NCBI GenBank assembly: GCA_002786065.1
Contig: NHNY01000004.1
Location: 1,240,001-1,304,000 of the forward strand
Length of the DNA stretch: 64,000 bases
Direction of reading: 5' to 3'
Source: Microcyclospora pomicola
Lineage: Eukaryota; Ascomycota; Dothideomycetes; Capnodiales
Positions 8,035 to 62,918 of this stretch are shown here, in pieces; position 1 is the stretch's first letter, and each line of letters begins with the position of its first letter. The notes under the pieces are model-generated. The model did no database searches. It was not told where the DNA came from and saw nothing but the letters and a program-made list of their open reading frames with translations. The position numbers were made by a program, and so were the translations under genes.

Positions 8035-9057
8035 ACAACCAGACCCACGACGAAAACCAATCACCACGCTAGCATCGCATTATTGCATTTGAGCGGGTTG
8101 CTCCGGCGTTACACGATCTGCATTAGCATGGCATGGCGTCCCGGGGTCAGGATGAATCGGTATGTTTCTCCTTCTTTCTTGCTTGTATTTCTGCAGCGGC
8201 GGCGGCGGCGTCTAGCGGCGGGGATTCAGCATCGAAGGACGATAGCTAGTGAGGGCCTGAAAAGATGTTCTTTCACAAGGAACTTTGCTGTGCATTGCAT
8301 TGAGGGAGGGTTTTGCAAAAGAATCATGGGAAAATGGGTGAAAGCTCAACTGCGGAATAGCTGCTGGTCCGTTGGGTACTGTTGTATCTAACGACCGGCG
8401 TAGAGATACCTTAGACTCTAATGCTACTCTTTTGCTTCTTCAATCTGTTCGCTTTCTGGTGCGTGACTATGATGTTGTAGCGAGGAACAAGTCCAGCCTA
8501 TTCGATGAGATGTGCTACCCTCGCAAGTGACTACCTACATATCTTGGTAGATGTGATTTCATCGGTGCCTGCCGCTCTGAGAAGCCCCCGTACGCCTGTT
8601 GGAACGTTTATCATCCTCAGGTGTCTATAATAGGTAGTGACACGTTCTTATATACCACATCACCTCAACAGCACCGCACACTAGGCGCGTCAAACTCACT
8701 AGCATGGACGTTTTGAATCTCGATCGGAGGTCAATGCCCCTGTGTCGGGATCAATAAAAGAGTCTCGGTCGCTATCATGGCGTCGCACGTGCCTCTAGCC
8801 GCTGGTATCGCTTAAGATGGTCATGAAGCTCTTCCAACGGTCAAACCGCTAGACGGTGACGACAAATCCTTATCGGTCTCTCACCGAGAAGCACTCCTGA
8901 TCACATTGGGGGCCCAATGTGAATCCACTGAAAGTGCGCAAACCAAGTACCAAGATTCAAAGCACTGCATCTAAGCTCAACCTGACATCCCAGTAGAGAA
9001 GACGCATCTCGCAGCACTTCTGGAACATTGAACTTACCTACCTACCGACCAGCGGCC
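8035..9057. other. Gene-free interval
   Basis: About 1 kb between the carrier and the SLATT gene, both on the + strand. Open frames are short and unlike any family. The last bases hold CTACCTACC-type repeats just before the SLATT start codon. Confidence 0.5.
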
Positions 9058-10288
9058 ATGCCAGACGAACGATCGCCACTTCTGCAATTCCCAGGTCAAT
9101 TCAGCGACTCCCCAAACGACAACAATGTTGCAGACCTCTACGCACAATTCTGCCAGCTCATAGGCATGAAGCCGGTCAATTATCCTCCCGGCCAGAAGTT
9201 CTATGCGCAGCCAGAGTCCCTCTATCAGCGGGCTAACAAGCATCGCAAGAACCAGAGCGCGACGTATATGTTCTCTGCGACCGTGACCAATGGACTCCTG
9301 CTCTCTCAGGTCGTTCTAGGCGCTGCTCTAACCGGTCTAGGCGCGAGCCAGTCCAGTCATATCCTGATCACAGTCTTCGGAGCACTGAATACTGTCATTG
9401 CCGGCGTGATCGCGTTTGTCAAATCCCGAGGCCAGCCGATGCGAGCACGCATGTTCCGCGATGATCTCTCGCGTGTCGTCGACGAGATCGAGAACTCGGC
9501 TATCATGTGGCAGGGGATCAGTACTGGCGTGCATGGCTACGATGCCATCGACACCGATGACCAGGTGACTGTGCGGAGTGAGGTTGCGAGACTTACGAGA
9601 TTATATGAAAAAGCCGTCAAAATAAGCACTGTACGTATGTCCTATGCTAGGTGTGAGCATGGATTGAGCTGATACTCCCCAGATGAATGATCCCGATAGC
9701 TACGCTGCTGGCAGCTCGGTCGATGCTTATAGTGCTGCAACACGATCGAGAAACGCTGCTGCGATTGCTCCGCCGCCAGCGGCAGCCCCACCGCCTGCTC
9801 CTACTCCTGCTGTTGATGATAGTACTGGAACAGCGCCAGCGGCACAGCCTGTAGCGCCATCCCCAGCCCCTATTGATCAGGATCCAGATGCAAGCCCAGC
9901 CACCGAGGCGCCCAGTGCTAAGGTTCCGGAACCTGTCAAGCCTGAAGCAACACCAGAAGCAAAGCCCGCCACCAGCAAAGATGACGAGCCTGCTCGACCC
10001 GAAAAACCTAGCGACAGCTCATCTGAAGTCCCTGACGCAGCGCCTTCTGATACCAATGTTCCCACTACTCCTCCAGCATCAGCACCGGCACCAGCACCAG
10101 CACCCGCACCAGTACCCGCCCCTGTGCCGGCCACTGTCCGCGATCCAGACGAGAGTCCTGCGACATCTGCAATTCACATTTCCAAGAAAGTTAGCTCTGG
10201 GTTGGACGAGCGCAAGGACTCAGCCGAACTGTCTCGAAGCAGTACGAACGATCAAGGAAGCGGAAAGGAGAATATGAAAGCCTCTTAG
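9058..10288 (+). CDS. Fungal SLATT-domain two-TM protein with Pro/Ala-rich tail
   Basis: Exons 9058-9630 and 9683-10288 (52-nt intron) give 392 residues. The frame opens at a TTG at 9028, so the first ATG at 9058 (MPDERSPLLQF) is the start. Residues about 60-185 match the fungal SLATT domain (SMODS- and SLOG-associating 2TM effector): a basic lead-in, a first membrane helix near 70-95, a short Gly/Ser loop, a second helix near 102-120 (HILITVFGALNTVIAGVIAF), then the amphipathic region after KSRGQP. In bacteria SLATT proteins are predicted pore-forming effectors of nucleotide-activated defence systems; the role of fungal members is unknown. From about residue 200 the chain is disordered and rich in Pro, Ala, Glu and Asp, with an Ala-Pro dipeptide run near 330. 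I see no SMODS, SLOG or other sensor domain in the neighbouring genes. Confidence 0.8.
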
Positions 10289-11895: not shown

Positions 11896-14700
11896 TCAGT
11901 CCAGCACGATGCGAACACCGTAGAGCTGCACACGCGCCAAGATACGTTTGCGACACATGGGGCAGTTATCCATCTTGCTGGCGCATTCCGAGCAGGCAAG
12001 GACGTGGCCGCAGTCGTAGAAGGCGGTGGTGATGTCGCGGCCGTAGCAGATGTTGCAAACACTGCGGTCCACGTCGGAGAACATGCCGGTGAGGGTGAAG
12101 GCGCCGTGCTTTTGACCGTGCTCCCAGCCGCCCACATACTTGTTGCCATTGTGCTCCGTCAAAGTGCCTTGGCCGTGGTGCTTACCCTCGTACCAAGCGC
12201 CGGTGTACGTGCTACTGTTTGATGCATAAATCATCGTCCCTTTGCCATGTGGGAGGTCGTTCTCGAACTCGCCAGTGTACTCGTCGCCTGACATGGTGAT
12301 GAGATGGCCATGCCCATGGCGCATGTTGTTGCGCTTGCCGCCGCAATAGTAGTCCTGGCCCAGCGCGTCGATCGTGATGTGGCATGGCTTGACCGAGGAT
12401 TTGGTCGTCGCCGTGACGCTGGTGAATTGGACCGAAGCCGCAAGTGGGTCGACGGGAGACGTGGCGTCGTTCTCTTCCGCGTCCGACATGACCACATCAT
12501 CGCCGTCCATGCGCCATTGTGGAGTGTCTGCGCCACCACCGGACGCAGATTGCGGGGCAGTATCTCCGCCGTCTCCTTCCGCCTCATCATGAGTGCAGGA
12601 ATCTGTCATGCGGGGATGGGAGTCGAGAAATTGATTCCGAACTCCTGGCCATGACTCCACGTCGAGCGATCGGATGCTCTTCCTCTCGTATCTTACATAG
12701 AACACAGCATACGCGACCTCCTCCCGGGCCCACTCGGTGTGAAGCCGTTGTGGCATATGTAAGGTGCCGTCCTTAGCGACAGCCTTACGTTCTTTCACCC
12801 CACAATGTGTCCCAGTAGCTTGTTTCTGTGTCAAGGCCACTATCTTTGCATCTCGATAGCCGTACCAGAGAGTCCCGACGCCACGAGGCCGAACGTAGAG
12901 CGTGTGCTGGTTGGACGTCAATGGACCAGTATGCGTCACATAGGCATACAGGTGGTATTTGGAACCGCCGATGCTTAGACATTCGTCCATCTCAACTATG
13001 TTGACGAGCTTTTTCCATTTGCGAGTCCTGGTGTCGAAGTCGTGTCTTTGCAACTCTAGCGTGACCAGTGTTGTGGCGGGAATGCGTTGGGTTTGCGCCT
13101 CCACTGCTTGTTTCACACTGCTTACATATTTGGTCTTCAGCCTGTTGCTTCCAACCGCATATCCTTCGTTTGCCTTGAGCGTACCAATCACACTCTTCAT
13201 ATGGGCGAATTCGTGCCTATCGCAGCCTTCAGCCAGCTTCTGCGCAAACCACTGCAAAGAGGTGATTACATCACCAGTCTCGGCAGATTTGATGCTGCCA
13301 TAGCCTGGCGAACACTTCCTGCTCAGCATTTTCAGGAGGAAGGTCTGGAGCAAGCCGATCGGTTTGCAGGTGCTCTTTGTTCGGTAGACGAGTGATCTGA
13401 ATTGGGGAACATGTAGCAATGCTCCGATGGCTGGAAACTCAGGCCCCGGAAAGATGAACGGCCTCAAACCAGTGGTCTCGACGCTGTGTTGGAAAAGTGC
13501 CTCAGCATCCAAATTCGAATCGTGCGCCCACATACAACCAGTCGGATCATTCACCACACGGATGAACGCTGTGAAAGCGAGGGTGTCGTTCTTGAGAATC
13601 GCCGTCCTTTGCCCAAACCTTCGCTGATGGAAGTTGTAGTGGTAGTCGTGGGAGAACTTTTGCCACCCGTAGTCTGCGGATCTGTGCTTGTACTGATGTG
13701 CGTCCGAGTGGAACTCATAGACTCGGGGCTCGGCCGGGTTGTACATCACCACTCCGATCTGTGCAGCGACCGATCGACGCTTCCTGAGCTTTGTTCGCTC
13801 ATCCGCCAGCTGAGGGAAAGGCAATAGCTGGAACTCCTCAAACTCCGGCGACTGCGACGACCGCATCGACACGCATTCGATATATATGCTGAGGTAGCTC
13901 GACTTGTCCCCGCGCGGGAAGAATTTGATCCTCCAGTCGTAGCCTCCGATGTGAACGACATCCGACAGCATGACACGTGCCTTGTTTGGCTGCTCTCTTG
14001 TTCCGTTGTATGCGACCGTAAAGTCAATCCTCCCGCTCTCCCTGATTGTGATCTCCTCGTCTTTGACATCGACAAATGTCTCCTTCTCCCAGTGTTTCAC
14101 GTCCTTGGCGCTGTACTCGACTTTGGACTGGATATGCTCGAGCTCGTCATGACTTGGCTCATCCGTGCATTCGGCCAGTGGCCGCCAGTGATGGCGCCGA
14201 TGCCCAGACTGCTGCTGTTGCTGCTCCTCCGTCTCCTCCACCTCGTCACTACCGTCGTCCTCGCCATCGTCCTCGGATGACTCCGCATGGTGTTGGGTGT
14301 TTGAGTTATCTGTAGATACTGGAGGTTGACGAGGGATCGGGATGGGTGCAGTTGCGGAAGCGTTCGAAGGGGGCATGATGTCTCCGAGCGGTGGTAGAGT
14401 GTTCGACTCGGGAAAGGTGAGCCCAGTGGCAAGTGATGCGTTTGTGGACCGGGCAGCGTGGAAGTTGGGTCCAGGTAGTGGCAGATCTGATGTGGTCGTG
14501 ACAGTAGTGGGAAGAGGGAAGGAACCGGCGAGATGCTCGGGTGGCTGCAGCGTGCTAGCAGCCTCAGCGAGAGCAAAGAGTGCGGCCGGTGCTGGGGTCC
14601 ACGAGGAAATTGGAGGTGGTTGCGGTTGGGATGTAGCAGGAAGAGCGTCGAGACCAGCGTCGGCTGGAGTGGGTGCAAAGTGCACGTGGTTCAAGCTCAT
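11896..14700 (-). CDS. MATH - degenerate USP - MORN - RING protein (putative E3 ligase)
   Basis: Single-exon gene. The first ATG is at 14700 (the frame opens with TTG at 14766), giving 934 residues. Residues 1-180 are Pro/Ser/Thr-rich with an acidic and Gln stretch. Residues about 222-392 look like a MATH/TRAF domain (IGGYDWRIKFFPRG, YLSIYIEC, then AFTAFIRVVNDPTGCMW). Residues about 411-673 follow the order of the USP7/Ubp15 catalytic domain: an FRSLVY helix end, TTLVTLELQRHDFD, YHLYAYVTHTG, QHTLYVRPRGVGTLWYGY and AYAVFYVRYE. The Cys box is gone (FPGPEFPAIGALL instead of N-x-G-x-T-C), while a His (599) and an Asp (617) remain. Residues about 784-873 contain about three MORN repeats (YTGEFENDLPHGKGT, YTGAWYEGKHHGQGT, YVGGWEHGQKHG). 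A C3HC4 RING closes the protein at 878-934 (CNIC...C-G-H-x4-C-x2-C...CPMC). I infer an E3 ligase whose pseudo-deubiquitinase part binds ubiquitin or a substrate. Confidence 0.8.
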   Translation of the reverse strand: MSLNHVHFAPTPADAGLDALPATSQPQPPPISSWTPAPAALFALAEAASTLQPPEHLAGSFPLPTTVTTTSDLPLPGPNFHAARSTNASLATGLTFPESNTLPPLGDIMPPSNASATAPIPIPRQPPVSTDNSNTQHHAESSEDDGEDDGSDEVEETEEQQQQQSGHRRHHWRPLAECTDEPSHDELEHIQSKVEYSAKDVKHWEKETFVDVKDEEITIRESGRIDFTVAYNGTREQPNKARVMLSDVVHIGGYDWRIKFFPRGDKSSYLSIYIECVSMRSSQSPEFEEFQLLPFPQLADERTKLRKRRSVAAQIGVVMYNPAEPRVYEFHSDAHQYKHRSADYGWQKFSHDYHYNFHQRRFGQRTAILKNDTLAFTAFIRVVNDPTGCMWAHDSNLDAEALFQHSVETTGLRPFIFPGPEFPAIGALLHVPQFRSLVYRTKSTCKPIGLLQTFLLKMLSRKCSPGYGSIKSAETGDVITSLQWFAQKLAEGCDRHEFAHMKSVIGTLKANEGYAVGSNRLKTKYVSSVKQAVEAQTQRIPATTLVTLELQRHDFDTRTRKWKKLVNIVEMDECLSIGGSKYHLYAYVTHTGPLTSNQHTLYVRPRGVGTLWYGYRDAKIVALTQKQATGTHCGVKERKAVAKDGTLHMPQRLHTEWAREEVAYAVFYVRYERKSIRSLDVESWPGVRNQFLDSHPRMTDSCTHDEAEGDGGDTAPQSASGGGADTPQWRMDGDDVVMSDAEENDATSPVDPLAASVQFTSVTATTKSSVKPCHITIDALGQDYYCGGKRNNMRHGHGHLITMSGDEYTGEFENDLPHGKGTMIYASNSSTYTGAWYEGKHHGQGTLTEHNGNKYVGGWEHGQKHGAFTLTGMFSDVDRSVCNICYGRDITTAFYDCGHVLACSECASKMDNCPMCRKRILARVQLYGVRIVLD

Positions 14701-16009: not shown

Positions 16010-17157
16010 TTATGACTCTGTCTTAGCGAAGGTGGCAGCCACAATCAGTGGGAAAGCAACAGTGGCTTCGACGAAGACCTAAATGGCGTTGACCTGTCAG
16101 CATAATTCGCACTTGAAGGGGATGTCGGTGAAATGGTAGAAGGTGTCATTACCTTGACACTCTCCGCATCCGCCTTGATCTTGCCCCAGCTGACTGCCTC
16201 GTCTGGTCGAGCGCCAGCATCACTACCATCGAACTCTTGGGCGGTGTTGATGAATACGGCGCTCTCGGCGCCATTACGCATCAAACACGCATTCGCGATG
16301 TGATGCTTGACGATCCCACCTCCCAACACAATCATGCCGGCCCGCTTGGCGCGAACGGATATGGTGTTGATGCGGCGGATGTCCTCTACGATGTCGATCC
16401 TCAGCTGTTGTGGCGACGACTTGAAGGTGTGGAAGTAGAGCATGTCGCCAAGACTTCCATCCGTGAGCGCGGGACAGAAGACGGGGATGTCGTTTTTGTA
16501 CGCCCAGTAATACACCGACTCCTCGTTGTCGATCTCCTTGCCCAGCCGTGCGATGATCTTGCTGGGAGTCCAGTTGAGTGGCTCCTCGTTGTCTCTGGCT
16601 GCCTCCTGTTCCTCCAACATACGATCAAGGATGGGCACCACCCAGTCCTCGAAGGCGCAGTAATTGCTGTTGGGGACTATGAGATTGCCGATGCGATTCA
16701 TGCCTTGCTTCCTCAAACCTGCGCCATCGGTCGAAAAAGAGCCGAGATGGGTAGGAGCCAGGCACTTGATGAAGTCCTCTTCCACACCTCCGGCCGTCGT
16801 GACAATGGCCGAGACATGTTTGTGCTGGACCAGCCATCGTAGTGTTTCCCGCAGGCCCGAAGAGATCAGGTTCGAAGTGTATCCAAGAAACACGGTGGTT
16901 CCCTCGCCACTTTCGGGGTCCCGCCACAGTCGCATACCGTCGATGATCTTCGCCGCCTGTCCGATGGAAGAGGCTTGGAAGCCCATGCTGGACATGTTCT
17001 CCACCATCTCCGCAACCGAGACATTGCGGTTCGCGAACGCATTGAAGTCCAGGCCTTTCACAGGAATGGCATTGTGGGCGATCGGAGCAGATGGCTTCAG
17101 CACAGCATCTGTCGCTCCCGCGGGTGCCGCGCCGTTGCTTACATCGTTGGAAGTCAT
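16010..17157 (-). CDS. DYS1: Deoxyhypusine synthase
   Basis: Transfers the aminobutyl group of spermidine to a lysine of eIF5A, the first step of hypusine formation, using NAD. Exon 1 is 17157-16153 and exon 2 is 16078-16010, with a 74-nt intron; total 357 residues. The NAD/spermidine-site features are visible: [14 protein letters not shown] at about 120-132, the LTDGSLGDM block at 231-239, and the active-site lysine K284 in [12 protein letters not shown]. The last 22 residues after the splice ([20 protein letters not shown], then ES) restore the family's conserved C-terminus. Two AG acceptors lie close together; only the proximal-to-exon one, ending at 16079, gives that ending, so I chose it. 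Reading through the intron would replace the end with an unrelated tail. Confidence 0.95.
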
Positions 17158-30537: not shown

Positions 30538-31854
30538 ATGTCTGGCTGTCTAAACAACCTGCCAGTGGAGCTCACCGAAGCGATTGTCTGCTTGCTTGAT
30601 CTGCCTTCCATCTGCGCGCTCCGAAGTACCTGTCGATCTTTAGCCGCGACAGCTTCTCATGGCCACTTCCGGTCATATCTTCGGGCGAAGACTATAAGCT
30701 TGACGCCGCAGTCTCTACGGAGAGCTCGAGCTGCCCTACAGAACACTACAGTATCTCAGTCCCTGCAATCTCTCGCCATTGTAGGTATCATCAGAAGCGC
30801 CGAGTCCACGAAACCAGAACCAATTGGGGTCGTTCAGCTCAGCCTTGCATTCAGTTCACTGAAAGCCGGATTGAAGAATGGACTCCTACAGTCGCTACGC
30901 GTAGATGTTCTTGAAGGACCCGACTATGAGGCCCTCTCATATGACCAAAGACGGCAAGCTATTTCCTCGGCGGGGCTCGCGGCTTTCGAAGCAACCGCGG
31001 TAGCTCTAGCACAAAGCGGACTCTCGATTGAAAGGCTGGACTTGTTCTCTGCTCTCCATCCGCGCCAATGCGTAAGTCCTCGTATTTCTTCCGAATGTCC
31101 GGACCTGATCCCTCGTCTCTATCCCCGCCGACACTTCAGTCTCCCTATAAGTCACGTCCGCCTGTGGGTGCAGGCTCAAGGATGGGCGAAGGGCTTGCAC
31201 AGCATCAAGCACCTTTCACTAAGCCTAACACACCGTCTCACCATCGACGAGGGCGAAGATCCTGCTTGTGAACAAGTATCCGGAGAACAAAACCTATCTG
31301 CGCTTTCCGAATTCTTCCAGATGATGCCGGTTGTTGAGCACCTCGACGTCCGTTGGTTCGGCCGCAGAACGCTTAGAGACTGTACTGAAGTGGACGAGCA
31401 AGAAGCGCGATTTTTCAACACCTGTCACGAAGCCATTCCGGCGAAAAACCTCAAGAAACTGGCACTCCGTGGCCTCCGCGTTGATGCGTCTGCGCTTCTT
31501 AGCTTCTTGAATCGATCGTCTGCACGATGGATCACGCTGCACAGCCTCCAAATAGATGGAGACAGCTGCAAAGCTATTCTAGACACTCTCACGCGCTCCG
31601 AAGACAGCTTGGAGTACTTTCATCTCAAGGACCTTTTTGAACGTCACGACAACAATGGTCTCGTCCATTACAGGGTATCCGGTAAGCCAACGCGCTCCTA
31701 TATTTACGGCGTCAATGGTTCAAGCGAAATCATTCGCGAGGGTTCCGAAGTGCAGGAGAAGCTTGAACGCACTCTTGATCCGAGAAGGATCGTGAGCAGC
31801 CGATGGATCCACCATTGGTTTAAGAACCAGATTGTGGTGTTTGGTAGTAATTGA
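30538..31854 (+). CDS. F-box protein
   Basis: Single exon, 438 residues, ATG at 30538. The F-box is at residues about 5-45 (LNNLPVELTEAIVCLLDLPS, then CRSLAATASHGHFRSYL), the motif that links to Skp1 in SCF ubiquitin ligases. The remainder alternates leucine-rich stretches (SIKHLSLSLTHRL, NLKKLALRGLRV, WITLHSLQIDG) that could form an irregular LRR-like substrate-binding domain. Fungal genomes carry many such lineage-expanded F-box genes of unknown target. Confidence 0.85.
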   Translation: MSGCLNNLPVELTEAIVCLLDLPSICALRSTCRSLAATASHGHFRSYLRAKTISLTPQSLRRARAALQNTTVSQSLQSLAIVGIIRSAESTKPEPIGVVQLSLAFSSLKAGLKNGLLQSLRVDVLEGPDYEALSYDQRRQAISSAGLAAFEATAVALAQSGLSIERLDLFSALHPRQCVSPRISSECPDLIPRLYPRRHFSLPISHVRLWVQAQGWAKGLHSIKHLSLSLTHRLTIDEGEDPACEQVSGEQNLSALSEFFQMMPVVEHLDVRWFGRRTLRDCTEVDEQEARFFNTCHEAIPAKNLKKLALRGLRVDASALLSFLNRSSARWITLHSLQIDGDSCKAILDTLTRSEDSLEYFHLKDLFERHDNNGLVHYRVSGKPTRSYIYGVNGSSEIIREGSEVQEKLERTLDPRRIVSSRWIHHWFKNQIVVFGSN

Positions 31855-54740: not shown

Positions 54741-57599
54741 ATGGTCACCCGAAAACCAGTGCCTGGGCAACTGGCAACACCCGCTCCAGCGCACAATACC
54801 TCTGCTTCCTCGAACCCGCCGTACCCCACTACTCCAACCACAGACAGTCAGGCTCCAACAGGCACAGGGAACGTCTACACGCCTCAATTGGGGAATGTGG
54901 CAGCCTTAGATTTGATCGACATGCAGGAGGCGAGAAAGCGATCAGGAAGTGATTCGGACATTTCTTCGCATGGGACATGGAACTCTGATGACGACGACCG
55001 TGACGACGACGACAAACAAGCAGAACCGGCTACATCCGATATACCAAAACCACTTCGCATCACCCCGGTCAAGCAGCCAGGCGAGCACAAGGAGGGGAAC
55101 AGGGAAGAGTTGCCCGCAGTCTTGCGAGTTGGCCCAGCGGGAGGAACGTCGAAACAAGTCACTCAAGCTGCGCAACAGTTTGGCGATGGAGCACAATCAA
55201 ATCCATGGCTGGGACCAACTTTAGGTTCGGTGACCAACACAGGGCAGCGACCGGTTGTCCCAACCATGGTGTCCAACAACCCATACAGACAACAGAATGG
55301 GTACGAGCCGCAAAACAGTCAGACTGCATGGCAGGAAGTACAATCTCAACCTCCGACACAACCTCCACCACCGCCGCCAGTGGAGCTGCCGGCAGTGACT
55401 ACACCCTCTCAGGAGCTTGCACACATGTCACTAGGTCAAGGCATATCTGGGAGCTCAAGCACCTACAAGACTGCAGAGATGTTGCCTGTGTCTACTGTAC
55501 CTGGACGCCAATTCTCAGATGAGGAATCCGACCAAGCACCAAGCAACAATCCCATACCCATCTCAAACCCTTGGCAGGATGATCAGCCGTGGTACGGAGA
55601 AGATGCTGCACACTCACAAACAATGCCATCTGCACCGCCACCATTACCGCCTGGGCGCAATGCGAATGAAACGCCCATCGATCTACCGCCTTCCGGGCAA
55701 CCTCCAACCACATCAGACTCTCTGCTTGATCGGCAAGACCATGTACAACACCAGCAATCATCTAACGATGCAGCTACGCTTTCAGACCGACCTGGTAACA
55801 TTTCCATACCAAACCCTGCCGCTGCGCGTTCAACAGAGTCGGTACCCGAGACACCAGGAACACGAATGCGGCGTCAGAAGAACGAGCACTATCAGATCAA
55901 GAATGTCCGCTGGCTGGACGGTCCAGCAATGCGCACAAGTCCAGTCCTCACTCAGAACGCCAATGGCCCTTGTCCCTTGCTTGCGCTTGTCAATGCATTG
56001 GTACTCGGTACGCCACCCAATGTAGATACTGCGTTGATCGAAACACTACGGACAAGGGAGCAAGTGAGCCTCGGACTGCTGCTTGACGCTGTGTTTGATG
56101 AATTGATGTCGGGGCGACGTGGTGAGTCTGCAGACGATCTGCCTGATGTCAGTGATCTATACGCATTCCTGCTCGCACTTCACACCGGTATGAACGTGAA
56201 CCCACGATTTGTCACGTCACTTGCCGGATTGCCGGGTTCGCCGAGTGGCGATTCAAGAGTCGACCATATACATCCGCTTGAACGCCCAGAAAACAAGCCA
56301 GGGAGTTTTGAGGAGACTCGGGAGATGCGACTGTACTCTACTTTCAATGTGCCACTAATTCACGGCTGGACGGCACCGAAAGGTACGCCAGATTATGATG
56401 CTTTCGAACGATCTGCTCAGACATTCGAGGATGCACAGAACGTCCAGTTTTCACAGGTTGAATTGGAAGACAAGCTACAATCCGAAGGTCTCAGTTCTGT
56501 AGAGCAGCAGAAACTCCAGGACATTCACACCATCAAGAATTTCCTAGACTCATGGCCTACACAATTGACAAACCACGGCTTGGAGATGATTTCCTCGAGC
56601 TTGAAGCTTGGCCAGATCGCGATCTTGTTCCGCAATGACCATTTCAGTACACTGTACAAAGAGTCCAAGCATGGTGCGCTGATGACACTGGTCACTGATG
56701 CTGGTTACTCGAGCCACGAGGAGATTGTCTGGGAGAGCTTGGTTGACGTCAATGGAGCTGCATCGGAGCTCTTCAGCGGTGATTTTCGTACAGTGAGCCA
56801 TCAGCAAGACGCAAGGCTCAACCAAAATAGTTCCGCGGGTGGTGAAGAAGGCTGGCAAACGGTTCCCAGTACACGACGACAAGATCATCAGCGAATACCT
56901 TCCGATGCCCGGACGACACCGGCGACCGCCGAAATTCGACCTCCTCTCCCTGGCTCTCGTCCTGCACAAGAGGCTGCTCCAACAAGTGTTAGCGACGCTG
57001 AGTCACAAAGGAGAGCAGCTGAGCAAGAAGACCACGATCTGGCACTTGCCCTTCAACTTCAAGAGGAGGAGGAAGACCAGCAACGGCAAGCTGATCAACG
57101 CAGACGACGCGAGCAAGAACTATCGGAGCAGTTCCTGTCGACCGAATCAAGCGAAGGTCCTCGTCCTACCATCCCGCCCAGGCGAGGGACAGGCCGTAAC
57201 ACCTCTACCACGAATATTCCCATTACCAATCGTCCGCGGCCTAGCGGACGTCCTGCCGTCAATAGACCTGCAGACCAAGACGATCCCGAAGCACCTCCAT
57301 CTTATGAGCAAGCTGCGACTGATCGACCCTACCGTCCTGCTGGTTCCACAGCGCCCGGCATGCAAGGCAGTCCTTTGTCGGCATACGATGCGCTTCGCCA
57401 GCAGCAGAACGCTATGAGCACTACGAGCCTCAACTCTACTGCATCCCCCCCGTACCATGCCCGCCAACGCAGCGATGGCAACCGCCTTCGACGGCGAGAC
57501 AGCCAGCTTGCTGGATCCGGACTTGGTAACCCATCGCCGCAGCGGGTTAATCAGGCAGCCAATGTACATGACGCAGAGGAGAGATGTAGTGTAATGTAA
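54741..57599 (+). CDS. MINDY-family deubiquitinase (Miy1-like) with CaaX end
   Basis: Cysteine protease that trims K48-linked ubiquitin chains (MINDY/FAM63 family). Single exon, 952 residues, ATG at 54741. The first 370 residues are disordered (Pro/Gln/Ser/Thr-rich). The catalytic domain begins near 372 (YQIKNVRWLDG), with the catalytic C411 in NANGPCPLLALVNAL, a STFNVPLIHGW block in the middle and H634 in FRNDHFSTLYK. A UIM-like helix (EDHDLALALQLQEEEE) sits near 760, which should help bind ubiquitin chains. The C-terminal 180 residues are disordered and end in CSVM, which fits a farnesylation CaaX box, so membrane attachment is likely (inferred). It is divergent from RAI1. Confidence 0.92.
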   Translation: MVTRKPVPGQLATPAPAHNTSASSNPPYPTTPTTDSQAPTGTGNVYTPQLGNVAALDLIDMQEARKRSGSDSDISSHGTWNSDDDDRDDDDKQAEPATSDIPKPLRITPVKQPGEHKEGNREELPAVLRVGPAGGTSKQVTQAAQQFGDGAQSNPWLGPTLGSVTNTGQRPVVPTMVSNNPYRQQNGYEPQNSQTAWQEVQSQPPTQPPPPPPVELPAVTTPSQELAHMSLGQGISGSSSTYKTAEMLPVSTVPGRQFSDEESDQAPSNNPIPISNPWQDDQPWYGEDAAHSQTMPSAPPPLPPGRNANETPIDLPPSGQPPTTSDSLLDRQDHVQHQQSSNDAATLSDRPGNISIPNPAAARSTESVPETPGTRMRRQKNEHYQIKNVRWLDGPAMRTSPVLTQNANGPCPLLALVNALVLGTPPNVDTALIETLRTREQVSLGLLLDAVFDELMSGRRGESADDLPDVSDLYAFLLALHTGMNVNPRFVTSLAGLPGSPSGDSRVDHIHPLERPENKPGSFEETREMRLYSTFNVPLIHGWTAPKGTPDYDAFERSAQTFEDAQNVQFSQVELEDKLQSEGLSSVEQQKLQDIHTIKNFLDSWPTQLTNHGLEMISSSLKLGQIAILFRNDHFSTLYKESKHGALMTLVTDAGYSSHEEIVWESLVDVNGAASELFSGDFRTVSHQQDARLNQNSSAGGEEGWQTVPSTRRQDHQRIPSDARTTPATAEIRPPLPGSRPAQEAAPTSVSDAESQRRAAEQEDHDLALALQLQEEEEDQQRQADQRRRREQELSEQFLSTESSEGPRPTIPPRRGTGRNTSTTNIPITNRPRPSGRPAVNRPADQDDPEAPPSYEQAATDRPYRPAGSTAPGMQGSPLSAYDALRQQQNAMSTTSLNSTASPPYHARQRSDGNRLRRRDSQLAGSGLGNPSPQRVNQAANVHDAEERCSVM

Positions 57600-57937: not shown

Positions 57938-60900
57938 TTATGGTTCGTCCTCTTTTCGAGTGACCATTTCGCGGACTTCGCTCAAAGCAAGCGGGTAGCT
58001 CGTGGGGCGATAAGGCGCCGGCTCTTCGGACGCGGACACCCAGATGCCCTTGGTGATCTCCTTGCCCAGCATCTCCATGATAGGCGTGACGATGGGGAGA
58101 CAGGCGAAGAGGGTAGTATAGCAGATGAGCGCGGTCAGGAGCATGTTCAGCCAGAATGGGAGGCCTTGGCCAGCGAAGAAAACACAAACCAGACTGCCCA
58201 TGGACCAGAAGACCAGCCCGTGAATCAGGTAGATCGTGAAGACGTGAGGAAAGAGGAAGAGGAAGACTTTGGTCGACAGGACTGCTTGCACCCATGTCGA
58301 CAGCTCTACGACGTATTGTGCGGCTACAGCGAATACGAGTCCGTTGAGTTTGGGCTCGGTGTAGCCAGGATAGCCGGCCCGAGCGGTGTCCATGATAGGA
58401 AGATCGGTTTGCATGTCAGGATGAATGCCACGCTCGTTGGTCGAGAACGTGTAGCCGGTCCAGACAGAAAGCAGATCGTTGCCCAAACTCGCGAAGACCA
58501 GGACACAGGCTAGGATCAACATTGGGTAGTGAATGAGGGGGTTCGCTTGGATGGGTTTGCGGTACTTGTATGTGATGTCCAGATCGGCGAGCATCAGACC
58601 GAACCAGAAGTAAGATCCCCACGACATTGCGTACCAGTGATTGATGATGCAGAAAGCGTAGTAGCCGAAACGCTTCCAAGGCGTCTTGATCTCACGGATG
58701 ATGACCACGCCAAGTAGCACCAGCCAACTGTTTTGGAGCTGCACGGGTATTGTCCACAGTACACCAGTGCAGAAGTTCCAGGTCAATTGAGGAGCGGCAT
58801 TAGGAATAAGGTAGAAAAGCTGTAGTGTTTCGTCGATAAAATAGCCGAAGTTGGTGTATAAAGTGGTTGATGGCCAGGTTGACCAGGTGATAGAGGGGAT
58901 GTATTCAAGATAGTAAACGGCACCAAGGTCCATGAGAAAGTACTCGAACAGGATGACGGCCGTGATTGGGATCATTAGACGTGGGCAACGACAGACGACC
59001 TTCTCGGCAATAGTCTTGAGATTGCCGGTGCGAAGATAGCCGCTGGTCAGGAAACGTGTCGAGGTGGTGAAGAAGATACCGACCCAGATCTCGTTGAAGA
59101 AAAAAGGTTCAATCGTTCTTCGTGCCCAGTACTCACTTTCATAGTGCTGGGGTAAATATTCTTCGATCACAGAAGGGACAAATGTGAGGATGAAATGAGT
59201 GCAAGAAACAAGAAGCGAGCATACGGCGACCAGACCAGCGAGGTAGTCTACACGCGTGCGTGCTTGTGGGACCGCTCCAGGCTTCGGCGTAGGCTTTGCT
59301 CCCGGGTTCGCCGCAGCCTGCGAGCCCTCGGGCACATAGTCGAGGCGTGATGGTGCTTTCGAAAGCAGATCTGCTGTAGATGCGTCCATGCGATTTGCAA
59401 GTGGTTCGATGGCGTCGAAACTAGTACCGGGTCTGCCATATGGACCCTCTTTCTCATACGCAGCAAGCGTTGCGGTACTCGCAGCAGCGGAGTATAGAAG
59501 AGGTTGACCGCTGACGGATCGGCCTTGTGCACCCAGATAAGGGCGACCAGGGCTAGCGCTGCCATCGATCAATGTAGTCGAGCTCCCAACCATCATTGGC
59601 CTCAAGTGGTCCATCTCGAAATCGGTCTGCGTGGTCCATGCATCGGAGACTGGTCTGCTCTTCGAGTTCAGATATGCTTGGGATTCTGGCCGGTTCTTGC
59701 CTTCATAGTATCCGCTTGGCATAGGCGAGGTCGGCATTTTCGGCCGGCTCATCGGAACCGTTGAAGACCGGGCGGGGGCCTTCTTGCCCATCATTTTGCG
59801 CGCAACTGCGTGAATGATCAGCACAGCGCTGAACGCCAGGCTCGCTATGATTATGGCGATTCCAGCCGCATGATTCTTCTTGCTCGGTACTGGCACACTC
59901 GCAGTTTCTCTCGAGGTCATTGCATCAGTGTAAGGCGTGCTTGCCCGTAAAGTCCAATCTTCAGTGGAACAGTACTGGCTGGAATCGCAGCTTGCCTGTC
60001 CAAGCTGTGACTCGCTTGTCAAAGACGAGTTGAAGAACAACCGGATCCATCCGATGCCAGCTGTTGTACCGCTGACCGCTGGGGTTTGCATCCAGTCTAG
60101 ATCACCGTTAGACCAATGCTTGAATATAAGCGACGAGGCCATCTCGACCATGTTTGCATTACTCGTCGGCACGGTGGTCAGAGTGTTGTTGCCCACCCAG
60201 TAGGTGATGTCGTCACTTGTCCAGTCCATCCGGTAGGGCAAGTAGCCGTATGGGAAATTGTACGAAGGCAGTGATGAATAATTGAGTCCGGCGGTGAGGT
60301 TTGGAGCCTGCCCACCATATGTTGTCTGAAAACTTGGATCGTATCCATTTCCCATGGCTAGCAAGTCGAGCTCCGCCGAAACTGATTCGTTGTGTTCTGC
60401 TCTCATCGTCAAGGCAGTACCTTGCCCGTATGGCGGACTCTTCATGAGTGCTCGAAAAGAGCCATATTGAATGTCCTTCCGTACCGTCTCTATCACTGCC
60501 CCGTCCACCAGATGAGTGGAAGTGTATGGCGAGACAGTGAGATTCAGGATCGACGGAGCAATATTCCATTCGGTGATGTTGGACGAAAAGAAAACGTTGG
60601 ACTTGGCCGCCCCTTCTCTGTAGTAGATTGTCCATCCCTTCTCATATTTATGCTCGAACTCGTTGATGGTGAACAGGTCGGCGGGAAGGGTGGTGTTGGA
60701 CGCCGTCTCATTGAAATATGCAATTATGGAATCCGTGAAGACATTTCCCGTGACAGGGTCTGAGTATCCGCAAGTGCAAGTAGCGGTTCCATTGTCTACT
60801 GATGTCGCGGCACTCGAAGTCGCGCTGCTGGTACTGCTACTAGTGGTGCTGATGTCGGCATCCGTGGTTGTGCTGGTGACCGAAGTCGCTGTGATGGAGG

Positions 60901-61033
60901 AGGAGGAAGACGTAGTCGTGGTCGTATCGTCCTGCGCAAAGGCCGTGGTCGCAAGGAGAAGGACAGAGGACGAGATGGCGCTTGTCCAGTTCCTTCTCCG
61001 ACGAAGCCAGGGGTTGTGCGTGCGACGCGCCAT
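57938..61033 (-). CDS. Membrane acyltransferase-3-like protein with extracellular domain
   Basis: Single exon; the frame opens at a GTG, so the ATG at 61033 is used, giving 1031 residues. Residues 1-33 form a signal peptide (basic MARRTHNPWLRRRRN, then a Leu/Ala core). A Thr/Ser-rich stretch runs to about 80, followed by an extracellular domain to about 385 containing a CTCGYSDPVTG start and many N-x-S/T sites. One helix near 390-412 (HAAGIAIIIASLAFSAVLII) is followed by a cytosolic Pro/Ser/Arg linker of about 200 residues. The C-terminal 400 residues hold about ten membrane helices in the order of acyltransferase-3-like fungal proteins, starting RTRVDYLAGLVAVCSLLVSC. Such proteins are thought to modify surface glycans or lipids; the substrate is unknown. 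Confidence 0.7.
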   Translation of the reverse strand: MARRTHNPWLRRRRNWTSAISSSVLLLATTAFAQDDTTTTTSSSSSITATSVTSTTTDADISTTSSSTSSATSSAATSVDNGTATCTCGYSDPVTGNVFTDSIIAYFNETASNTTLPADLFTINEFEHKYEKGWTIYYREGAAKSNVFFSSNITEWNIAPSILNLTVSPYTSTHLVDGAVIETVRKDIQYGSFRALMKSPPYGQGTALTMRAEHNESVSAELDLLAMGNGYDPSFQTTYGGQAPNLTAGLNYSSLPSYNFPYGYLPYRMDWTSDDITYWVGNNTLTTVPTSNANMVEMASSLIFKHWSNGDLDWMQTPAVSGTTAGIGWIRLFFNSSLTSESQLGQASCDSSQYCSTEDWTLRASTPYTDAMTSRETASVPVPSKKNHAAGIAIIIASLAFSAVLIIHAVARKMMGKKAPARSSTVPMSRPKMPTSPMPSGYYEGKNRPESQAYLNSKSRPVSDAWTTQTDFEMDHLRPMMVGSSTTLIDGSASPGRPYLGAQGRSVSGQPLLYSAAASTATLAAYEKEGPYGRPGTSFDAIEPLANRMDASTADLLSKAPSRLDYVPEGSQAAANPGAKPTPKPGAVPQARTRVDYLAGLVAVCSLLVSCTHFILTFVPSVIEEYLPQHYESEYWARRTIEPFFFNEIWVGIFFTTSTRFLTSGYLRTGNLKTIAEKVVCRCPRLMIPITAVILFEYFLMDLGAVYYLEYIPSITWSTWPSTTLYTNFGYFIDETLQLFYLIPNAAPQLTWNFCTGVLWTIPVQLQNSWLVLLGVVIIREIKTPWKRFGYYAFCIINHWYAMSWGSYFWFGLMLADLDITYKYRKPIQANPLIHYPMLILACVLVFASLGNDLLSVWTGYTFSTNERGIHPDMQTDLPIMDTARAGYPGYTEPKLNGLVFAVAAQYVVELSTWVQAVLSTKVFLFLFPHVFTIYLIHGLVFWSMGSLVCVFFAGQGLPFWLNMLLTALICYTTLFACLPIVTPIMEMLGKEITKGIWVSASEEPAPYRPTSYPLALSEVREMVTRKEDEP

Positions 61034-62918
61034 TCGAAACACGCAGGCCGGGAAGAGAGCGTAAGGTGTTCCTTGCGTGAGATAGGTTCAAAACTGAATA
61101 TTTCAATCGTTGTTCAGCTGCATTCTTTTCTCCTACAACAGATAGGCTTCATCCAGATGGCCCGCGCAAGCACAATAACCAAGCGAGTGTTGTATGGGTC
61201 TGACGAAGTGATCGGTGGTCGGTGGGTCGAGCGCAGTCGACGTGGAGGTAGCTGACTGTGAGATTGGTTCGTGCTTGTTCGTGCACTACCACACCAGTAT
61301 GGTGAAGTGAAGAGAAAGCAACATGAACATGAAAGTGGTGAGCAGCTGATTTCCCGGAAGCCGCATCAGCGTCAGCATGAGCAGCTACCTGAACAACACC
61401 ACCTGCATCAGCCACTACTGGACCAGCGACTGCATGCGCTAATCGTCTTCCCTGCAGGACTGTTGCCGATACATGCTGCACCGGGTCTACGCTCTCCTGA
61501 TCTCAGGATTGGCATTCCTTGACGTCCCGAAGACTACTACTGAACACTGATCCTCCGAGCCCACCACCGCCACCAGTTCCCCAACGCCCGCGGAGGCTGA
61601 ACCTCCCACTGCCAAGACGTAGCCACGCCAGTCCGCCGATCTATCCTACTTTCCCACCAATCCCTACCGGCAGAAGGACAATGCAGGTGATCCGCTGGAT
61701 TCTCCTTAGCAGCGAGATCTGACTCCAGCATTATTTACTGCATCGAGTCTTTCGCAATTCCCGCGCGAACTGTCGCCGAACTTGGCAGGGCATTACCGAC
61801 ACTTCCGTTCCCCTTTATATCTAGACGATGTACTTTTTGGCTCTCTGACGAACGGAACCCGTCAAGCCGCCGACTACATTCTTCTCTGCGACTATTGGAT
61901 GGTCTGTCAGGGTCAAGGTTTGCCACCTGCTCGCAGAGAAGATAACTGAAACACGGCTCGAAAAGGTCCCGGAACACAATCCTGCAGTCGCATGAGCTAG
62001 CATGCGAGGACACACGCATGCTCTACCAAGAGCACGATGCGCGCAGCATACCTGAGCATTGATCCGTCATTCCACGATTATGACCATCGTCATCTCCTGC
62101 TGCGCACGATGATATGTCGGATACCCACACCAACTACACATATGATATCTGATCTCGCGAGATGAGTAGATCTACCGATTGATCCTGGCGAATGTCACTG
62201 AGATAGCATATGATGCCATTATCATTGCATCATCCGCTCATCAAGCAGACGCCCAACGGTGGCGGACATGGACCGAGCCTACTCTTCGCATGCAATGTCA
62301 ACGAGTAGCTTATCAGCAAAGCCAATTTTTCTATTATTGCTCGGCACTTCCACATACTGTACCAAGTGTGTTTCGCGCTGGGTTCGCGTGTTAGAAGCGT
62401 GCGACGCGCGGCTCGTGAACCAGGGGAGCGAATCTGCTCCGCGGGAATTTAGGCTGGACGGCCACCTAATCTCTGAATGTGAGTGCTGCTTGAGATAAGC
62501 CCGATGGTCAGGTAAAGTTATCTTATAGCAAAGATCTTGGTAAAACGCATTCCACCCACTCACAGGACTGACGGTGTCTTGACTGCCAGAATGGCACCCT
62601 CATCTCGTGTTAGGAAGAGGCCCATACCGCTGTCTTAATGGGTCGCATGCACAGGACGAAGGATTCAGACATGAAACATGGTATCTCAATCCAAATGATG
62701 ATTTTCTGCTGATTGGTGGTGGAGCAACAACGGGGAGAAGACAAAGGTATTATCTACTGTTCGAATTGGACCTCCTTCGAGATATTCAGTGTTTGTATGC
62801 TAGTAAACATGCGGCGACTCTTTGAAAAGGCGCGTGCAATGTCTTATGATATACAATTGTACATATAGCGCATCTACCACAGCGCTCCAGGAGTCGCGTC
62901 CATAGTGCGATGTGCCGT
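61034..62918. other. Gene-free interval
   Basis: About 1.9 kb between the acyltransferase promoter and the right-edge gene. Frames are short, non-ATG or overlapping on both strands. I see no repeat, tRNA or conserved protein. Confidence 0.5.

Follow-up and report, generated by a model that had tools for sequence, protein, structure and literature searches.

A putative RING ubiquitin ligase with a USP7/Ubp15-like pseudo-deubiquitinase core in leotiomyceta fungi

Several described proteins share parts with the one reported here, the product of a gene in a 64,000-nucleotide stretch of the Microcyclospora pomicola genome (the window, by which we mean the whole of the DNA that was analysed). TRIM37 has a RING and a MATH domain, as the window protein does, and no known USP domain. 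In A20 a protease and an E3 zinc finger stand in one chain; the protease is active and is an OTU enzyme, of another fold. XIAP, cIAP1/2, BIRC7 and MYLIP end in a RING of like ligand pattern and linchpin position, whereas the BIR domains of IAP-type E3s and the FERM domain of MYLIP are missing from the window protein, whose substrate module would instead be MATH plus pseudo-USP. MORN1 and RSPH1, its top PDB sequence matches, share the MORN repeats and to our knowledge have no ubiquitin-system domains. We likewise know of no RING in USP39/Sad1 or PAN2/USP52, which have roles in splicing and deadenylation. Like the window protein, these two have a USP domain that lacks the usual catalytic residues (PMC10919355). 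USP7 and Ubp15 share with it the order of MATH then USP and the USP fold; the window protein differs from them in its replaced catalytic triad, its shortened fingers, the missing USP7_C2 and PF12436 domains, and the added MORN repeats and RING.

The combination of MATH, USP, MORN and RING was not described in the titles or abstracts of the literature searched. The available part of a review of fungal deubiquitinases names UBP15 as the MATH-bearing one and does not mention a pseudo-USP/RING family (PMC9599802). An earlier note on this DNA, made from the letters alone, knew of no described family with this architecture, which holds for that literature but not for the databases, where many relatives have the same order. 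They are filed there as PIP5-kinase, radial spoke head 1, Alsin, apoptosis inhibitor IAP, USP21 or peptidase C19, conflicting names that each reflect one domain at most; several others are called "MATH and UCH domain protein". The deubiquitinase label often given to them is probably wrong.

The gene and its relatives

The gene is real. Its frame runs without a break on the minus strand, from an ATG at 14700 to a stop at 11896-11898, and Pfam recognised four domains in it, each above its curated cut-off: from N- to C-terminus MATH_2 (residues 240-351, E 6e-8), UCH (473-631, E 5e-6), MORN (E 3e-12) and the RING zf-C3HC4_3 (879-920, E 7e-12). The single uninterrupted frame of 934 codons and the four parts joined in one protein had both been read correctly in the earlier note. 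The UCH profile was matched only from its position 67 of 254 onward, so its Cys-box part is unmatched. An AlphaFold (AF2) model of the window protein, built from 109 sequences, had pLDDT values mostly above 90 across MATH, USP and MORN and of 80-94 over the RING (by ten-residue block); values fell below 50 at residues 1-152, 647-654 and 697-764. Positions of the features are collected in Table 1.

Table 1. Features of the window protein and its upstream neighbour, with positions in the window
Feature	Residues	Position	Strand	Basis
Whole CDS		11896..14700	-	934 codons + stop; intron not required
MATH/TRAF domain, pocket motif D343-Y344-G345-W346	218-384	13549..14049	-	Pfam MATH_2, AF2 strands
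Pseudo-USP (USP7-like, triad lost)	405-673	12682..13488	-	
G419, faces catalytic Cys	419	13444..13446	-	Ungapped reading against P0111, MAFFT; Cys in 0/220
Shortened fingers region	506-544	13069..13185	-	Segment length, AF2 model
Q598, faces catalytic His	598	12907..12909	-	BLASTP, MAFFT, USP7 profile alignment; His in 2/220
R616, faces catalytic Asp	616	12853..12855	-	BLASTP, MAFFT; 20 Asp and 1 Asn in 220
MORN repeats, four beta hairpins in model	784-871	12088..12351	-	Pfam, PDB sequence matches, AF2 model
C-terminal RING, IAP/MYLIP type	879-927	11920..12066	-	Pfam, alignment, PDB sequence matches
Deoxyhypusine synthase (DHPS) gene, upstream neighbour		16045..17157	-	Pfam; same order in five fused relatives

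The family as counted here has 220 members: the window protein (P0001), 108 sequences from a first homologue search and 111 from a second, which gave 165 matches with the best 120 listed. A bacterial kinase (P0110; Pfam MORN plus kinase) was removed ahead of every count. All eight C3HC4 ligands of the RING are complete in 180 members, and all of these have at least two MORN-like motifs (loose pattern) downstream of the USP part. The four-domain order, which the earlier note had proposed seeking in other fungi, is widespread: by taxonomy look-up, full-RING members occur in at least seven classes of leotiomyceta, namely Dothideomycetes (for example P0013), Eurotiomycetes (P0124), Lecanoromycetes (P0189), Geoglossomycetes (P0169), Coniocybomycetes (P0197), Xylobotryomycetes (P0086) and Candelariomycetes (P0178), and also in the leotiomyceta of uncertain place Trizodia, Thelocarpon and Vezdaea. 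We noticed no Sordariomycete or Leotiomycete names among the named matches of this short-word search, in which few genera were given taxonomy; absence from these two classes is not established, since only candidates sharing many short words were scored.

A quick LG+G4 tree was computed from 81 of the 220 members with Ubp15 as a single, long-branched outgroup. Its root is unsure because the outgroup pairs with a long row, P0108; a search from P0108, the row nearest the root, for a sister group returned only P0108 itself and P0185. RING-bearing rows were found in all main branches, and for this reason, with the root unsure, we do not favour RING-less members as the ancestral form. A complete RING is missing from 40 of the 220 sequences, including every row of two groups in the tree, one of eight (P0092, P0095, P0100, P0103, P0106, P0214, P0215 and P0217) and one of three (P0097, P0098 and P0222). 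In the larger group P0214 and P0215 end inside the RING, and the other six stop just past the UBL stretch, in sequence that resembles a translated intron. We take many of the 40 to be reading frames probably truncated at an intron or at the end of a contig; the two groups may have truly lost the RING. The two relatives with the highest scores, P0002 and P0003, bear the species name Quercus suber (cork oak) in the database yet nest in the fungal tree with the window protein; the oak assembly is probably contaminated with fungal DNA.

The USP-like domain

USP7 was the top PDB profile match of the window protein (E 3.9e-22, far above chance) and also topped both Foldseek and VIA. Within the M. 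pomicola genome, where 15 USP loci were scanned, Ubp15 (P0111) best matched the USP profile of the family (85.9 bits vs 34.3 for the next locus). The alignment behind the USP and MATH profiles contained Ubp15, but neither Ubp15 nor members with less than half of the columns filled went into the profiles themselves. The model of a long relative, P0078, matched full-length USP7 over 1001 columns (E 1.1e-33). Eleven long relatives were scanned for the C-terminal domains of USP7: PF12436 (UBL) was above cut-off in eight and below it in three, USP7_C2 (PF14533) was found in none, and the MORN-RING part occupies the place of USP7_C2. The own-genome Ubp15 matches both domains, and the window protein, a short form, had no Pfam match to either. 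The USP fold itself is kept in the window protein according to Pfam, the AF2 model, the PDB profile match, Foldseek and VIA. The order of MATH then USP, the own-genome Ubp15 match, the first rank of USP7 in Foldseek and VIA and the partial UBL in long relatives all argue for USP7 ancestry. The USP part thus appears to be of USP7/Ubp15 type by descent, as the earlier note had suggested, and, as far as can be judged from its residues, to lack those that define a deubiquitinase.

In active USPs the fingers help to hold ubiquitin. The fingers segment, from the thumb helix to the first palm strand, has 40 residues in the window protein vs 77 in Ubp15, and in the model no strand at 506-544 is as long as three residues; the canonical grip on ubiquitin is therefore probably weakened in the window protein. 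The median length of the segment is 40 for the 68 members classed as short and 43 for the 138 classed as long, with 14 members outside both classes. It ranges from 33 to 76 over the 220 members and reaches at least 60 residues in 35 of them; strong shortening is true of the window protein and most members, not of all.

At the Cys box, GLRPFIFPGPEFPAIGALLHVPQFRSLVY of the window protein stands opposite GLRNQGATCYLNSLLQSLYLTGAFRKAVY of the own-genome Ubp15 without gaps, which puts G419 at the catalytic Cys, and MAFFT likewise places a Gly in that column. The triad of Ubp15 is C235, H479 and D496, and its counterparts in the window protein are G419, Q598 and R616. The earlier note had been right that the Cys box is replaced, but the His599 and Asp617 that it took for the remaining triad residues are each one position off: in BLASTP and MAFFT, H599 and D617 lie opposite the next residues of Ubp15, a Tyr and a second Asp. 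The alignment to the USP7 profile agrees on Q598 and opens a gap at the Asp position. In USP7 the triad is reported as C223, H464 and D481, and D482 is counted as critical too, as a fourth residue (PMC10867860). D617 is the counterpart of D482, and Asp is present there in 153 of the 220 members.

Two triad residues never occur together in one member, and the His column is occupied by His in P0054 and P0212 only. An intact Cys box, which the earlier note had proposed seeking among orthologues, was absent from all 220 members (with the second search represented by the best 120 of its 165 matches). Ranked by entropy within the domain, the lost His and Asp columns stand at the 79th and 82nd percentiles, compared with the 2nd for H590 and the 1st for W612. 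Both thus vary more than most columns of the domain, which we counted in favour of triad loss; the Cys column, at the 50th percentile, is average. With Cys, His and Asp all replaced in the alignments, the USP part looks catalytically dead, and more completely so than the earlier note had proposed.

We also considered a displaced nucleophile. The window protein has no Cys in residues 405-444. A Cys lies within eight residues of the catalytic Cys column in 31 members, and the commonest Cys columns within 385-673 are 389, in the MATH-USP linker (154 of 219), and 622 (151 of 220), which is an Ala in the window protein. P0212 (named Vezdaea aestivalis) is the sole one of the 31 to have His in the His column as well; its Cys lies four residues before the Cys column, and Leu and Ser occupy the two Asp positions. 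P0088, which is closely related to it, lacks both the Cys and the His at those positions. Of all 220 members, P0212 comes closest in its aligned residues to a residual active site. A displaced nucleophile was rejected as a general rule on these counts, a rejection that does not cover P0212 itself.

Candidate ligase features and readings of function

The RING is intact in its sequence, so the RING finger described in the earlier note stands. Its zinc ligands are C882, C885, C897, H899, C903, C906, C913 and C916, followed by a linchpin Arg (R917) and a tail aromatic (Y927). Among the 180 full-RING members the Arg directly after the last Cys is invariant (180/180) and a Tyr, Phe or Trp stands ten residues beyond it in 178. 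The nearest solved RINGs by sequence are those of XIAP, cIAP and MYLIP. In cIAP1, E2~Ub is reported to be stabilised by linchpin R606 and by F616 of the tail, the latter across the RING dimer, and F616H is defective in ubiquitin transfer; the spacing of R606 and F616 is that of residues 917 and 927 (PMC6349121). Arg is described as working best at the linchpin position, where XIAP has Tyr, so a linchpin Arg is not universal in the dimeric IAP class (PMC12326332). Ligands, linchpin and tail aromatic together are the sequence features of a dimeric IAP-type RING E3 and suggest E3 activity; with its RING intact, the window protein may add ubiquitin instead of removing it.

The MATH domain is modelled as strands between residues 218 and 384, mostly at pLDDT above 90. 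Pocket column 343 is Asp in 213 of the 220 members, and column 344 is aromatic in 212 (Trp in 144, Tyr in 45, Phe in 23). They match USP7 D164 and W165, reported as essential for binding of P/A/ExxS motifs (PMC6203733), which counts for a substrate pocket in this MATH domain. MORN repeats are described as protein-protein and dimerisation modules that dimerise in solved examples (PMC7725318).

At a probability of roughly two in three, we read the window protein as a USP7/Ubp15 paralogue that lost catalysis and works as a RING E3, MORN and RING having replaced the C-terminal activating module of USP7. The MATH domain would select substrates through the same pocket as in USP7, the dead USP core (with the UBL stretch in long relatives) would serve as a scaffold, and the MORN repeats would aid assembly. 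The C-terminal RING, as a homodimer of IAP type, would recruit and activate E2~ubiquitin through the linchpin Arg and, across the dimer, the tail Tyr. E3 activity, dimerisation and substrate choice are our interpretation of computed features: the domains and their order, the predicted folds, the loss of the triad, the integrity of the RING and the spread of the family. Against this account we counted Y344, a Tyr in place of the Trp, and the 40 sequences without a complete RING, with their two whole groups. USP53/54, once called dead, have been revived as USPs (PMC12037411), and USP52/PAN2 through a non-conserved Cys (PMC10919355); these precedents, the common Cys at 389 and 622 and P0212 also weigh against it. 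More tentatively, the E3 and the active paralogue Ubp15 might read the same MATH-binding motifs, one adding and the other removing ubiquitin on shared substrates, the ligase having been built by swapping the C-terminal activating module of USP7 for MORN-RING.

The palm and thumb of the USP fold, which the model retains with high confidence, could also serve a reader: the pseudo-USP would still bind ubiquitin, and the E3 would dock on ubiquitinated substrates and extend chains in the manner of an E4. Pseudo-DUBs are reported to have non-catalytic roles (PMC10919355) and some members have the longer fingers, but the rewritten Cys-box loop and, in the window protein, the short fingers, with no modelled strand of at least three residues, make such a reader unlikely. 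We are more doubtful still of a dominant-negative scaffold that competes with or joins Ubp15 at MATH-bound partners, its RING being mainly structural. Both paralogues are present in one genome and both keep the DxG[WF] pocket motif, as such a scaffold would have it, whereas the constancy of the linchpin Arg and of the tail aromatic suggests selection for E2~Ub activation beyond folding.

That the protein is still a deubiquitinase with a non-canonical nucleophile seems very improbable. The database names peptidase C19 and USP21, the USP52 precedent (PMC10919355) and the 31 members with a nearby Cys point that way; set against them are the Cys column empty of Cys, the near absence of His, which P0212 alone combines with a nearby Cys, the placement of the commonest Cys columns in the linker and at an Ala of the window protein, and the lack of Cys at 405-444. 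A chance gene fusion or gene-model artefact of the M. pomicola genome alone has nothing but the odd architecture in its favour and can be practically dismissed, given the single frame in genomic DNA and the full RING, always with MORN-like motifs after the USP part, in 180 of 220 members.

If a ligase of USP7/Ubp15 descent is the right reading, the family would clearly illustrate the conversion of a deubiquitinase fold into a ubiquitin ligase, conserved in at least seven leotiomyceta classes. Fungal proteins filed as deubiquitinases, kinases, alsins and radial-spoke proteins would then need re-annotation, and surveys of mould deubiquitinases that count UCH/MATH domains could overcount. The family also offers a way to test whether an active enzyme and its pseudoenzyme paralogue have substrates in common.

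Neighbouring genes

Twenty neighbouring ORFs in the window were scanned with Pfam; tRNA and Rfam scans gave no matches. The DHPS gene and the pseudo-USP/RING gene are separate in the window, 1.3 kb apart on the same strand. Five of the 220 relatives are models in which DHPS is fused in the same order. We read these as joined neighbours and not as a true fusion, since the genes are separate in the window in the same order and strand; the adjacency and the five fusions suggest a conserved neighbourhood. Beyond the 3' end of the gene, ORF 9028-9672 (+) has a SLATT_fungal domain (SMODS and SLOG-associating 2TM effector; Pfam E 6.6e-35). Not adjacent to the gene are a weak F-box-like match in ORF 30538-31854 and a MINDY deubiquitinase domain (E 3.4e-74) in a 952-residue ORF at 54741-57599 (+). 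The sole Pfam match of a 1034-residue ORF at 57938-61042 (-) is a glycosyl hydrolase 16 domain at residues 180-319.
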